Shown piece after piece: positions 36,098 to 63,908 of a DNA stretch of 64,000 nt. Each line of letters opens with the position of its first letter. Within the stretch, counting starts at the first letter, position 1. The notes under the pieces are model-generated. The model ran no database searches. It saw only the letters and a program-made list of their open reading frames with translations, and was not told the DNA's origin. The DNA comes from Planctomycetia bacterium (GTDB lineage Bacteria; Planctomycetota; Phycisphaerae; UBA1845; UTPLA1). Location of the stretch: positions 868,001 through 932,000 of the forward strand of contig JABTTW010000001.1 in the NCBI GenBank assembly GCA_015075745.1, written 5' to 3'. Both the position numbers and the translations under genes were made by a program.

Positions 36098-36250
36098 TGA
36101 CTGGCTGTTAGGCTGGCTTATCCGGGAGAGGCCTGCGCTACCCTTTATAAGAATCCAAATCCGATAGGGCCGATTCAAATCGTTGAACAGCCTTGTCATT
36201 TCGGTAGAGCGTAAAGGCTGCTCTCTCTGACGCCGCGCCCGGATACCCTG
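36098..36250 (-). repeat. Partial duplicate of the lipoprotein gene 3' end
   Basis: It is about 88% identical by eye to 37331-37480, which covers the last ~30 codons of the gene at 37380-38369 plus ~50 bp beyond its stop. On the minus strand it still reads TLYRNDKAVQRFESALSDLDS, versus TLYRNDKAVQRYESALSDLDS in the intact gene. The old stop has become a Tyr codon and there is no start, so this is a gene fragment. It and the intact copy bracket the Y1-transposase locus. Confidence 0.8.
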
Positions 36251-36644: not shown

Positions 36645-37097
36645 TCAATCACACACATACTTCACGTCGAACTCGACACCATGCGCCGTCAGTAGTCGCA
36701 GCAACTCCGATCGAAAGTCCTCCCGCCGATGATGCTCCGCCTGATTCGCGATGTATTTCTTAACCACGTCTTCCTGCGACTTGCTGACCGAAAAGGCGGA
36801 GTAGCCCTCTTGCCATGCAAACGCGGCGAGTCTCGGAAAAGTCTCATGGACCCATTTCGACGACCGCGCTTTCACGACTCGCATCAGATTCGAAATCGAT
36901 TCGTCCGGCCGCCAGCGCACGTACAGGTGAACGTGGTCCTCTATACCGCCAATGTCGAGCAGTGTCCCCTTCTCACTGCGAACAATCCCGCCGATGTACG
37001 GATAGAGCCGCTCTGCAATCTGCGAGCTGATCCATTTCTCGCGATGCTTGGTGCTGAAGACGACGTGTAACAGAACCTGCGAGTACGTGCCGGGCAT
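36645..37097 (-). mobile_element. tnpA: IS200/IS605-type Y1 transposase gene
   Basis: A complete 150-residue HUH-type transposase. It begins with YSQVLLHVVFSTKHRE. The histidine pair is in DIGGIEDHVHLYVRW (HxH) and the catalytic tyrosine is in VVKKYIANQAEHHRREDF, the standard IS200 TnpA signature. Such enzymes move as single-stranded DNA and recognise subterminal hairpins. The gene is flanked by inverted structured repeats R1 and R2, which fit the hairpin-recognition role. Whether this is a free IS200 element or a domesticated REP-type enzyme is unclear. No TnpB or accessory gene is present. Confidence 0.9.
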
Positions 37098-37330: not shown

Positions 37331-37480
37331 TGACTGGCTGCTAGGCTGGCTTAACCGGGAGAGGCCTGCGTTTCCCCTTCTAAGAATCCAAATCCGAGAG
37401 GGCCGATTCATATCGTTGAACCGCCTTGTCATTTCGGTAAAGCGTACAGACTGCTCTCTTTGATGCCGCGCCCCGGATTC
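37331..37480 (-). repeat. Duplicated segment spanning the 3' end of the lipoprotein gene
   Basis: This is the intact partner of 36098-36250. The homology begins with TGACTGGCTG and includes the stop codon region and the final ~30 codons of the neighbouring gene. Confidence 0.8.
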
Positions 37481-38369
37481 CGACTCTCATGACAACCTTA
37501 GTCCTGTCATGGTCAATTCGCGTGACATTCAGTTCGAATACATAGACGGAATCATCTTGCCGAGTTGTTTCGATCGAAACGCCACTCGAATCCGGTTGAT
37601 ACCTTGCGGCGACTACTCTCGCCGCCCCAATCATACTGAACGCGCGATCACCATTGCATACGAGCTGATGGGGGTTTTGAGACATGCCCTCCACGGTCCC
37701 CGTCCAGTCGAAGGTCCCATCATCCCGAATAATAATCTTCGCCATCATGTCGTCGGGCGAAAGAGTCCACGCGCCTGCGATTCTGGAGCGGTTGTCAATG
37801 CGCAGGAGTTTTTGATCGTGCCGCGACAAAACCATCGTCTTGACGGGCCTTCCTAAGCCCTGAAATGTGCCGCAGTCAAATCTCGCAGTTCCATCTTCGC
37901 GAAGCTCAAGTGCGAAGTCCGCTTCCTTCAGCGAATCGGTATAAAAGCCGGGATCGGTTCGCTCGATCGTCACACTCGATCGAGTTGGGGTGTACTCCGC
38001 CGCGCTCAGCTTGAATCGGCCATGGAGCGGGCGTCTGCTCACACATTCATCTCCGACGTGCTCAAGATCGTGAATCCCGTAAACCGAGCCGGCGGAAGAG
38101 CGTGACCAGTCAATGGCGCCGTTCGGTAGGATAGAGACGAATACGATTTTCTCATAAGCTAGTGCAGGTAGATCCTTCCCTCGCGAGTTTTGTCCTCCCG
38201 TGATAGCCTCGTCCGCGTCTGCATAGGTGATTGACCACCTCCCTGCCAGCTTTGAAAACGTCGGCTCTTCACAAACCCGCTTATGGGTCTTCGCGCAGCC
38301 AAGCCCGGACCCCATGATGATGACGATCAGTCCGCCCAAGCCGTTTCGAATGACTGGCTGAAGAACCAT
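37380..38369 (-). CDS. Hypothetical lipoprotein
   Basis: A 329-residue protein with a lipoprotein signal (GGLIVIIMGSGLGC, Cys at about 25). The mature part appears beta-rich. It contains two similar halves: ALELREDGTARFDCGTFQG and KIIIRDDGTFDWTGTVEG both follow hydrophobic strands and precede comparable segments, suggesting a duplicated lipocalin-like or immunoglobulin-like unit. AAGGAGC precedes the ATG at 38369. Its 3' end is duplicated on the far side of the Y1 transposase. No function is recognised. Confidence 0.7.
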   Translation of the reverse strand: MVLQPVIRNGLGGLIVIIMGSGLGCAKTHKRVCEEPTFSKLAGRWSITYADADEAITGGQNSRGKDLPALAYEKIVFVSILPNGAIDWSRSSAGSVYGIHDLEHVGDECVSRRPLHGRFKLSAAEYTPTRSSVTIERTDPGFYTDSLKEADFALELREDGTARFDCGTFQGLGRPVKTMVLSRHDQKLLRIDNRSRIAGAWTLSPDDMMAKIIIRDDGTFDWTGTVEGMSQNPHQLVCNGDRAFSMIGAARVVAARYQPDSSGVSIETTRQDDSVYVFELNVTRIDHDRTKVVMRVGIRGAASKRAVCTLYRNDKAVQRYESALSDLDS

Positions 38370-38726
38370 AGTCAAGCTCCTTGTAGTGCGGTCCTCACTC
38401 CGACCCATACGTACATCAAACCGCGTTTGCCTCGAAATATCCAGTAAATACCCATGTTCCCTGCATTATCTGGCATCCGATGTTCCACGCCGGTCGCAGC
38501 CCCGCGCGAACACGGAGCAAGAGTCTCTAATGCAATGCCCACAGCATCACCCAACCTGCGCACGCAACGAACCGTCCCTCGCCTTTACTGCTCAGAAGTG
38601 CGAAACCCTGAAACTCGTTTTCACAGTGTCACTTTGTCAGCCCGTTTTTCAAAGACTTACAAACGAACTTCCCCGAGTTTTTCCACGCCCGTTCGGGCAT
38701 ACACCCGTCGTGTTTCACCTTGCGCG

Positions 38727-60923: not shown

Positions 60924-62411
60924 GTGACCATCCGCCCCATCATCGGTCTTGAGATTCATGTTCAACTCGCCACGCGCACGAAGATGTTCTGCCCGTGCGC
61001 GTTGGAGTTTGCCGCGGAGCCGAACAGCCGCGTTTGTCCGGTGTGTCTGGGGATGCCGGGGTCGCTGCCGGTGATGAACCGGACGGCGTACGAGCTGTCC
61101 GTGCGGGCGGCGACGGCGCTGAATTGCAAGATCGCCACCTTCACCAAGTGGGACCGCAAGAGCTACTACTACCCCGACATGCCGAAGAATTACCAGATCA
61201 GCCAGTACGACCTGCCGCTCTCGTCGGAGGGATGGTTTGAGGTCCCGGCGGCGGACGGCAACTCGCGGCGCGTGGGGATTATCCGCGCACATCTGGAAGA
61301 AGACGCGGGCAAGAATCTGCACGAGGGCCTGGCCTACACCCGCGTCGATCTGAACCGCGCCGGCACGCCGCTGCTGGAGATCGTCACGAAGCCGGACCTG
61401 GCGGATGCCGAGGAGGCCTACAACTTCTGCGTTGAGCTTCAGCGATTGGTGCAGTACCTGGGCATCAGCGAGGCGAACATGCAGAAAGGGCAGATGCGCT
61501 TCGAGCCGAATGTGAACGTGGCCATCACCGAGGGCGGCGTCGAATACCGCACGCCGATCAGCGAGATCAAGAACCTCAACAGCTTTCGCAGCGTGCGCGA
61601 CGCCATCAAGTACGAAGTCGATCGCCAGGTGCGGGCATGGCAGGATGACCACGACTACACGCTGGCGAAGGTCGGCAAGCTGAACTTCGGCTGGGACGAC
61701 GTGAAGCTGGTGACGGAGTTCCAGCGCGGCAAGGAGGAGTCGCACGACTATCGATACTTCCCCGACCCGGACCTGGTGCCGGTGACGGTGGAGGATGCGT
61801 GGATCAACGAAGTGCGCGAGAAGCTCGGCGAGCTTCCGCTTGCGAGGCAGCAGCGGTTCATGCGCGACTTCGGCATGACTGTGAAGGATTGCGAGGTGGT
61901 GCTGGCCGATCGCGCGACGGCCGACCTGTACGACGGGGCCATCGCCGCCGGGGCGGATGCGAAGATGCTCACCAAGCAGTTTCTCGGCGTGTGGAACAAT
62001 TTGGCCAGCGCGCGCGGCCTGTCGATCAGCGGGCTCGGCGTCACCACGGGGATGATCGCCGATCTGGCGAAGGCGGTCGGCGGCGGGTCAGTCAGTGCCA
62101 CGGCGGCAACACAGATTGCGGAAGAACTGGCAGGTGGGGCGAAGTCCGGCGAAAGCGTGATGGACATCGCCAAACGGCTCGGCCTCGTCCAGGAGCGCGA
62201 CGAGGGTGCGACGCAGAAATGGGTCGACGAGGCCTTCGCCGCCAATGCCCAGGCGGTGGCCGATGCCCTCGGCGACAACGAACGCAAGTCCAAGGCCGCC
62301 CCCGGTTTCCTCCGCGGACAGGTCATGAAGATCTCACAGGGCAAGGCAGACCCGAAGATGGTGGGCGAGTTGATCGAGAAGAAGATCGCGGAATTGAAGA
62401 GTGCGAATTAG
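60924..62411 (+). CDS. gatB: Aspartyl/glutamyl-tRNA amidotransferase subunit B
   Basis: A 495-residue GatB, the kinase/tRNA-binding subunit of GatCAB, which converts misacylated Glu-tRNA(Gln) or Asp-tRNA(Asn) to the correct amidated form. Start is GTG at 60924. RPIIGLEIHVQLATRTKMFC, the zinc-region CPVCLGMPGSLPVMN, EDAGKNLHE, RAGTPLLEIVTKPDL, and the tail YqeY-like domain are typical; the last residues KIAELKSA match the family end. gatA and gatC are not in the window. It ends 36 bp before the duplicated start of the LOG-like gene. Confidence 0.95.
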   Translation: MTIRPIIGLEIHVQLATRTKMFCPCALEFAAEPNSRVCPVCLGMPGSLPVMNRTAYELSVRAATALNCKIATFTKWDRKSYYYPDMPKNYQISQYDLPLSSEGWFEVPAADGNSRRVGIIRAHLEEDAGKNLHEGLAYTRVDLNRAGTPLLEIVTKPDLADAEEAYNFCVELQRLVQYLGISEANMQKGQMRFEPNVNVAITEGGVEYRTPISEIKNLNSFRSVRDAIKYEVDRQVRAWQDDHDYTLAKVGKLNFGWDDVKLVTEFQRGKEESHDYRYFPDPDLVPVTVEDAWINEVREKLGELPLARQQRFMRDFGMTVKDCEVVLADRATADLYDGAIAAGADAKMLTKQFLGVWNNLASARGLSISGLGVTTGMIADLAKAVGGGSVSATAATQIAEELAGGAKSGESVMDIAKRLGLVQERDEGATQKWVDEAFAANAQAVADALGDNERKSKAAPGFLRGQVMKISQGKADPKMVGELIEKKIAELKSAN

Positions 62412-62447: not shown

Positions 62448-62505
62448 ATGACCGACCGACCGTCTGATATGAAGTTTCCCGCGACGAGGACCGGGCCGTC
62501 GATTC
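62448..62505 (+). repeat. Duplicated 5' end of the LOG-like gene (orphan copy)
   Basis: 58 bp identical, except one base, to 63345-63402, the first 19 codons of the gene at 63345. Here the frame starts MTDRPSDMKFPATRTGPSI and then runs into repeat DNA, stopping at 62523-62525. It still has a purine-rich GGAAGAAGAGA upstream and is probably the original gene start displaced by insertion. Confidence 0.9.
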
Positions 62506-62530
62506 CCGCTGTAGCGCCACGATGAAATCC

Positions 62531-62564
62531 CACTGTAGCGCCGCCCCTTGTGGGTGGCGAGGAG
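62531..62564 (+). repeat. Left inverted repeat of the REP-transposase locus
   Basis: CACTGTAGCGCCGCCCCTTG and TGGGTGGCGAGGAG form a 34-bp segment that is inverted at 63058-63091 with two mismatches. It also contains one inverted 24-nt unit of the right-hand array. Confidence 0.85.
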
Positions 62565-62573
62565 CGCCGATCG

Positions 62574-63056
62574 ATGGATGGGCCACATCCGTATCGCATG
62601 TGGAGCCGTAGTCGCTCGGTGCGACTGCCCGGCTACGACTATCGGGAGCATGCTCCGTACCACATCACGATCTGCGCGATACCGGGGAGCCGACCATTCG
62701 ATGACGAACATCGGGCCGAGATGGTCTGCCGCACTCTGCGAGAATACTCTGAGTCACTCCGATTCTACCTTGCCGCATATTGTCTGATGCCTGACCACAT
62801 GCACGTTCTCCTGTCTCCCGCGGGTTCAGGGTTATCCGTCGGGCAGTTCATCGGCCGGTTCAAGGGCAAGACCACAAACGAAAGCTGGAAGCTCGATTGG
62901 CGGGGGCCGTTGTGGCAGCCGCGTTTTCACGATCACATCGTGCGTCGGGATGAGAGTATTCGCGACACAGCGCGATACATCATCGAGAATGCACTAAAAG
63001 CGGGGTTCGGTGAGGCATATCCTCATCGATGGGCGGACCCGGACGTGTTACGATGA
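62574..63056 (+). mobile_element. REP-associated tyrosine transposase (RAYT)
   Basis: A 160-residue HUH-Y1 transposase of the REP-associated type. LPGYDYREHAPYHITICA opens the domain; the HxH pair lies in YCLMPDHMHVLLSPAG; a REP-type middle SVGQFIGRFKGKTTNES and the catalytic tyrosine in DTARYIIENALKAG follow. These proteins are thought to spread REP palindromes. The start at 62574 has GAGGAG upstream; an earlier GTG at 62550 is possible. It is enclosed by a 34-bp inverted repeat and followed by a tandem array. Confidence 0.9.
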
Positions 63057-63057
63057 C

Positions 63058-63091
63058 CTCTTCGCCACCCACAAGGGGTGGCGCTACAGTG
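63058..63091 (-). repeat. Right inverted repeat of the REP-transposase locus
   Basis: The counterpart of 62531-62564, starting at the second base after the transposase stop. The inverted pair brackets the gene with a few bases to spare on the 3' side. Confidence 0.85.
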
Positions 63092-63309
63092 AGGTTTCAG
63101 TGCGTTGCCACGGTGAGGTTTCAGTGCGTTGCCACGGTGAGATTCCAGAACGGCGCTACGGTGAGGTTTCAGTGCAGCGCTACGGTGAGGTATTCGGCGC
63201 GGCGCTACGGTGAGGTATTCGGCGCGGCGATGCGGTAAGGATTCCGGCGCGGCGTTGCTATGAGGCCTCTGGCGAAGCGGTATAGTGAGGTTTTCGGCGC
63301 GGCCCTACG
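63080..63309 (+). repeat. Tandem array of 24-25-nt units
   Basis: Nine full units and a partial one follow without spacers, each close to GGCGCTACGGTGAGGTTTC plus a 5-6-nt end (AGTGC or GGCGC). The units nearest the gene are 24 nt, those further away 25 nt and more diverged (for example GGCGATGCGGTAAGGATTC). No unit-to-unit spacers exist, so it is not a CRISPR. The array is REP/BIME-like. Confidence 0.88.
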
Positions 63310-63344
63310 TTTGGTGCCCTCAATCGTTCGACGTGGAGCAAAGT

Positions 63345-63402
63345 ATGACCGACCGACCGTCTGATATGAAGTTTCCCGCGACGAGGACCGGGCCGTCTAT
63401 TC
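63345..63402 (+). repeat. Duplicated 5' end of the LOG-like gene (functional copy)
   Basis: The partner of 62448-62505. Here the 58 bp continue into the full gene. GGAG (63335-63338) lies about 6 nt before the ATG, so a new ribosome binding site appears to be supplied by the sequence to its left. Confidence 0.9.
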
Positions 63403-63908
63403 GGCGGCTGCAGGTCGGCATCATTGGTTCGAGCGAGGCCGATGAGGCGATGATGCGGCTGGCCGAAGGGGCGGGGCGCGTCGTGGCGAAGCTCGGCGCG
63501 GCGCTGGTCACCGGCGGGCGCGACGGCATCATGTCGGCCGCGTCGAAGGCCTGCGCCGAGGCCGGCGGCATCGTGATTGCGGTGATTCCCGGCACGGGCA
63601 TGGAGGAGGCCAACAGTCATTGCCACTACGTCATCCCGACGGGCCTGGGCTGGGCGCGGAACGTGATCACGGCGATTGCAGGCGACGTGATGATCGTCAT
63701 CGGCGGCGCAGCGGGCACGCTCAGCGAAATCGCCTACGCATGGATGTACGACCGGCCGATCATCGCCCTGTCGGAAAGCGGCGGCTGGGCCAAGCGCCTC
63801 GCGGGAGAAAGCATCGACCACCGCCGGGAGGACACCATCGTCGATTGCCGAAGCGTCGAGCAATTGGAGGCGGTGCTGCGCGAGCTAATGCCGAAGTTGC
63901 GGCGGTAG
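63345..63908 (+). CDS. LOG-like Rossmann-fold protein (TIGR00725 type)
   Basis: A 187-residue protein of the lysine-decarboxylase-like/LOG superfamily. LQVGIIGSSEADEA opens the Rossmann fold. The phosphoribohydrolase-like motifs are GAALVTGGRDGIMSAASKA and GGAAGTLSEIAYAWMY (variant of PGGxGTxxE). The extra 20 N-terminal residues come from the duplicated segment and precede the fold, so they are probably not essential. The subgroup's substrate is not established; nucleotide 5'-monophosphate N-glycosidase activity is a family-based guess. Confidence 0.85.
   Translation: MTDRPSDMKFPATRTGPSIRRLQVGIIGSSEADEAMMRLAEGAGRVVAKLGAALVTGGRDGIMSAASKACAEAGGIVIAVIPGTGMEEANSHCHYVIPTGLGWARNVITAIAGDVMIVIGGAAGTLSEIAYAWMYDRPIIALSESGGWAKRLAGESIDHRREDTIVDCRSVEQLEAVLRELMPKLRR

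Follow-up and report, generated by a model that had tools for sequence, protein, structure and literature searches.

How does a transposase locus come to lie within the start of a gene and leave that gene complete? The question is raised by a LOG-like gene in the window, by which we mean the whole 64-kb stretch of DNA analysed here. The first codons of this gene occur twice, on either side of a REP-associated Y1 transposase (RAYT) gene, its REPs and a tandem array.

The duplicated gene start and the insert between its copies

The two copies form a 58-nt direct repeat on the forward strand (outer copy, 62448-62505; inner copy, 63345-63402) with 839 bp between them. They are identical at 57 of 58 positions and cover codons 1-19 of the LOG-like gene and one further base; the sole mismatch (62501 G, 63398 T) is synonymous (TCG/TCT, Ser18). 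Because BLAST pairs the copies within the window at E = 2e-21, the repeat is not due to chance. A search of the whole genome placed the segment at these two positions only, which rules out a widespread genomic repeat, and a scan of the window for direct repeats of at least 40 bp and at least 80% identity within 4 kb returned, besides this pair, only one of 150 bp at 36-37 kb. The outer copy begins 36 nt after the stop codon of gatB (60924-62411, +), an ORF with GatB_N and GatB_Yqey domains, and opens an orphan ORF of 25 codons (62448-62525, +; MTDRPSDMKFPATRTGPSIPAVAPR) that runs on into the insert and stops within the first REP unit. The inner copy forms the start of an intact gene (63345-63908, +) that encodes a 187-aa protein of the TIGR00725 / SLOG cluster 4 type (LDcluster4, 2.7e-38; TIGR00725, 127.5 bits against a cut-off of 106.9), and a GGAG at 63335-63338 lies 6 nt 5' of its ATG at 63345. 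An earlier sequence-only reading had described the flanking copies with their one mismatch, the orphan peptide and the fresh GGAG; all of this was borne out.

The insert (62506-63344, +) begins with a left REP end (62506-62558, +) made up of CCGCT, a GTAGCGCC unit at 62511 and a full REP, CT-GTAGCGCCGCCCCTTGTGGGTGGC, at 62535-62558, whose GTAG occupies 62535-62538 (hairpin -6.4 kcal/mol, z -2.5). An AGGAG at 62560-62564 precedes the ATG of the intact RAYT gene (62574-63056, +; 160 aa), which is followed by an inverted REP on the reverse strand (63064-63087, -; GTAGCGCCACCCCTTGTGGGTGGC; hairpin -8.2 kcal/mol, z -3.8). The REPs that flank the RAYT are held in an inverted pair of 42 nt with 90% complementarity. 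From 63080 to 63309 (+) runs a degenerate tandem array of about nine copies with a period of 24-25, built on the 3' edge of the REP, GGCGCTACGGTGA (TRF: 9.4 copies, period 25, 75% matches); its unit is the REP 3' edge without the hairpin, and it has a short inverted counterpart at the left end of the insert. A non-repeated 3' tail of 35 nt (63310-63344, +) carries the GGAG and has no second match in the genome or in the loci compared. Since neither a sigma-70-like promoter nor an intrinsic terminator was found in the insert, read-through from gatB into the RAYT and on into the LOG-like gene is plausible.

The encoded protein has a Y1_Tnp domain (1.3e-10) and passes the NCBIfam cut-off for REP-associated tyrosine transposases by a small margin (NF047646, 82.2 against 80 bits), and it lies below the IS200 cut-off (22 against 55 bits). 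Its HUH motif reads HMH and its tyrosine lies in RYI; the usual YIxxNP reads YIIENA, with NP changed to NA. It is a single copy of its type, with one genomic match to the protein, and the other 11 Y1 genes of the genome differ in sequence. REPs with the GTAG hairpin of its flanks are dispersed, with 19 matches at no more than one mismatch in this genome (none for the reversed pattern), one in G001 and none in G002. The RAYT is itself flanked by REPs in inverted orientation, as in the RAYT / REPtron class, and the insert is best read as a REPtron, a known kind of element.

Single-start relatives, age of the event and origin of the RAYT

In G001 (QEVG01000020.1, Planctomycetota bacterium) and G010, gatB is followed directly, with no insert, by a LOG-like gene with one start; in G002 the gene also has one start and lies behind a different upstream neighbour. 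These comparisons are with other species, the nearest of which differ at 14% and 24% of the 58 positions, with an intergenic stretch that cannot be aligned. The N-terminal codons, to which the outer copy is orthologous, are conserved in G001 and G002 and are therefore part of the gene and not of the element. Given that the gene has one start in all three relatives and follows gatB directly in two, the insertion is, on these comparisons, derived in this lineage, as the sequence-only reading had supposed of both the insertion and the duplication.

The inner copy differs from its same-genus orthologues at 14 of 58 sites in G001 and 8 in G002, and the outer copy at 14 and 7, compared with 1 of 58 between the copies themselves, a small sample (one event in 58 sites) from which the age ratio should not be over-read. 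By this measure the event is young. The nine array units, with a mean pairwise identity of 71%, are far more diverged than the 58-bp copies, so the array would predate the event and the block probably arrived ready-made, with its array already diverged, on the assumption that the units do not evolve much faster than the flanks and that the copies have not been kept alike by gene conversion.

The RAYT may have come from outside the lineage. A tree of 25 RAYTs places it in a group with four members of family f8 (support 100/100), and the other f1 RAYTs (G010, G016) fall in the other main clade. It is the only member of its clade in the genome and is absent from G001 and G002, and its GC3 is 0.65 compared with 0.86 in gatB and the LOG-like gene. 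Its isolation in the genome, its grouping with another family and its low GC3 together suggest horizontal acquisition. No donor RAYT closer than 55% identity was found in the order search or in the class and phylum samples, and differential loss may be an alternative. Horizontal arrival followed by spread of the REPs would fit the data; such spread would require that the RAYT already had some history in the lineage, perhaps at a previous site.

Flanks of other REP, RAYT and Y1 loci

The sequence-only reading had further proposed that the locus may show how such elements insert at gene ends. The other loci speak against this. No comparable flanking duplication was present at 14 other REP loci of the genome, whose flanks had at most 11 nt in common in a loose match, against 8-13 nt in mismatched-flank controls; these loci partly overlap or share sequence (L058 and L072 gave the same result), so that the independent sites number fewer than 14. 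Two other REP loci were compared with G001 and G002, and their intergenic parts aligned too poorly to define empty sites. Nor did some two dozen RAYT loci from the order show a comparable duplication beyond REP/BIME sequence: the long flanking direct repeats at L030, L084, L086, L094, L096, L097 and L103 are REP or BIME sequence with GTAG hairpins, and L032 and L033, from relatives, have inverted REPs only. A long flanking duplication is thereby ruled out as a general RAYT/REP signature, and independent insertions with direct duplications of similar length were not found. Because these loci lack such duplications, elements of this kind do not regularly generate them, or at least none that persist; the 58-bp repeat looks like a feature of one event, a one-off repair accident.

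Some REP and RAYT loci have features of their own. At L094 and L097 the RAYT gene lies between direct repeats of 104-121 bp that begin with GTAG hairpins (BIME-like units). The RAYT of G037 (L033, 1501-1956) contains one in-frame TAG and may be a decaying copy. Six direct tandem REPs with a period of ~47 bp lie upstream of a gene at L006 (~1502-1767; G000 C1 518353-518618), unlike the hairpin-less array of 24-25 bp units at the RAYT. A REP variant whose stems read GTCACCC...GGGTGAC is clustered at L063 (G000 C1 1742314-1742815) and L068 (449251-449751), inside longer repeats of ~90-240 bp.

The window holds a second Y1 gene (36645-37097, -), of IS200 type, with ~90-94% DNA identity to relatives elsewhere in the genome. 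It lies between the 150-bp direct repeats (36098-36247 and 37331-37481; 89% identity), which do not abut the IS200-type element; an ORF at 37380-38408 has its 3' end in the right-hand repeat. At the other ten Y1 loci of the genome we found no bracketing pair of unique sequence within ~1.5 kb. Bracketing at both Y1 loci of the window is suggestive; two of 12 in the genome is less so. Two Y1 loci of this genome (L048, 2619-3345; L050, 1-732) match over 733 bp (98.6%) on one flank of the Y1 gene; this stretch may be another mobile element.

Routes of arrival and comparison with known systems

The exact boundaries of the insert read GATTC/GGCG on the top strand and GGTCAT/GATGG on the bottom strand (slash, junction). 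Neither is CT or CA, at which RAYTs cleave (PMC8266576). A CT/GTAG site lies 5 nt inside the left junction, which leaves some room for involvement of the RAYT at that end; the right junction lies ~35 nt past the last CTAC-like motif. Given these boundaries, the distance of the right end from a CTAC-like unit and the fact that Y1 transposition in IS200/IS605 elements yields no larger target duplications (PMC2817692), we favour capture during repair or replication restart.

We think it probable that a ready-made REPtron (the RAYT between inverted GTAG REPs, with its diverged array) was recently captured within the opening codons of the LOG-like gene, just downstream of gatB, by a repair-type event, the duplication being incidental and seen because the gene was saved. 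The two strands may have been broken or nicked at points 58 nt apart and then filled in, leaving the 58 bp on both sides, or replication may have copied the foreign DNA and re-entered 58 nt upstream, producing the gene start twice. The inner copy would thereby have been joined to the remainder of the gene, now complete and presumably starting behind the insert-borne GGAG, and the outer start would have been left with 25 codons reading into the REP. Ku was not found in the genome, and classical Ku-dependent, two-protein end joining was therefore set aside as unlikely.

The same final arrangement would result if the LOG-like gene had first been duplicated in tandem and a REPtron insertion and a deletion had then removed the left copy except for its first 58 bp. 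The bracketing of the window's other Y1 locus by a diverged repeat over a gene 3' end, as from a decayed duplicate, agrees with such a history. It is nonetheless unlikely, as it needs several events in the short time set by the 57/58 identity; in addition, the insert's 3' tail has no match in the part of the window downstream of the gene, and the relatives searched yielded no tandem pair of the gene.

Transposition of the whole REPtron by its RAYT, with opposite-strand nicks 58 nt apart giving a long target-site duplication, is quite unlikely. The enzyme looks intact from its sequence, REPs are far more numerous here than in relatives, so that the RAYT probably has been active, and the left junction is close to a site of the type that RAYTs cleave. 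Against this stand the position of the right junction and the sequence of both boundaries, the want of such a duplication at any other REP or RAYT locus, and the fact that long duplications are not known from Y1 transposition. A literature search for long bacterial target-site duplications yielded eukaryotic R2 elements only. More broadly, that the entire REPtron moved recently, in one piece and by a route giving a long (58 bp) target duplication that can preserve the target gene, strikes us as decidedly improbable. If true, it would show a mobility of RAYT loci that the cited papers describe as not seen (PMC3116915, PMC6006769). Finally, it is very improbable that the GGAG tail is the gene's original leader and that a block of copied gene start plus REPtron was inserted between gatB and the gene, since, even with the same GGAG-6-ATG spacing at the inner copy as in G001, alignments of the 5' leader favour neither copy and there is no known source for a copied gene start on the left end of an incoming element.

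For repair-type capture of a ready-made REPtron, the complete gene copy left after insertion inside a gene can be a survival effect that calls for no dedicated mechanism: gene-sparing cases would be enriched by survival because an insertion in a gene start that left no intact copy might not persist. A single gene-sparing duplication should accordingly not be taken as a mechanism. RAYT loci are described as single-copy (PMC3116915), and movement of a REPtron as one unit is not known (PMC6006769), so a complete RAYT-REP locus whose arrival is young and bounded is useful for asking how RAYT genes spread.

Some integrative elements carry a copy of the end of their target gene and so restore it on insertion. 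The outcome is shared here, in that the target gene is whole through a copy of its end across the insert; in contrast to those elements, the insert has no site-specific recombinase gene, and elsewhere the duplicated piece does not belong to the element. With IS200/IS605 the insert shares the Y1 HUH transposase superfamily. Members of that family have no inverted repeats at their ends and make no larger target duplications (PMC2817692), whereas the RAYT is under the IS200 cut-off and its insertion came with 58 bp of duplication. The closest likeness is to REPtrons and their RAYTs (TnpA-REP) with GTAG-type REPs; such REPs, including those flanking RAYTs, have been described, Planctomycetes included (PMC3733652). 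The insert shares with them a Y1 HUH transposase gene, present once and set between inverted GTAG-hairpin REPs, related REPs scattered through the genome and a protein that passes the REP-associated tyrosine transposase cut-off, and it differs in the long duplication of host coding sequence on its flanks and in the array of hairpin-less 24-25 bp units that follows it.
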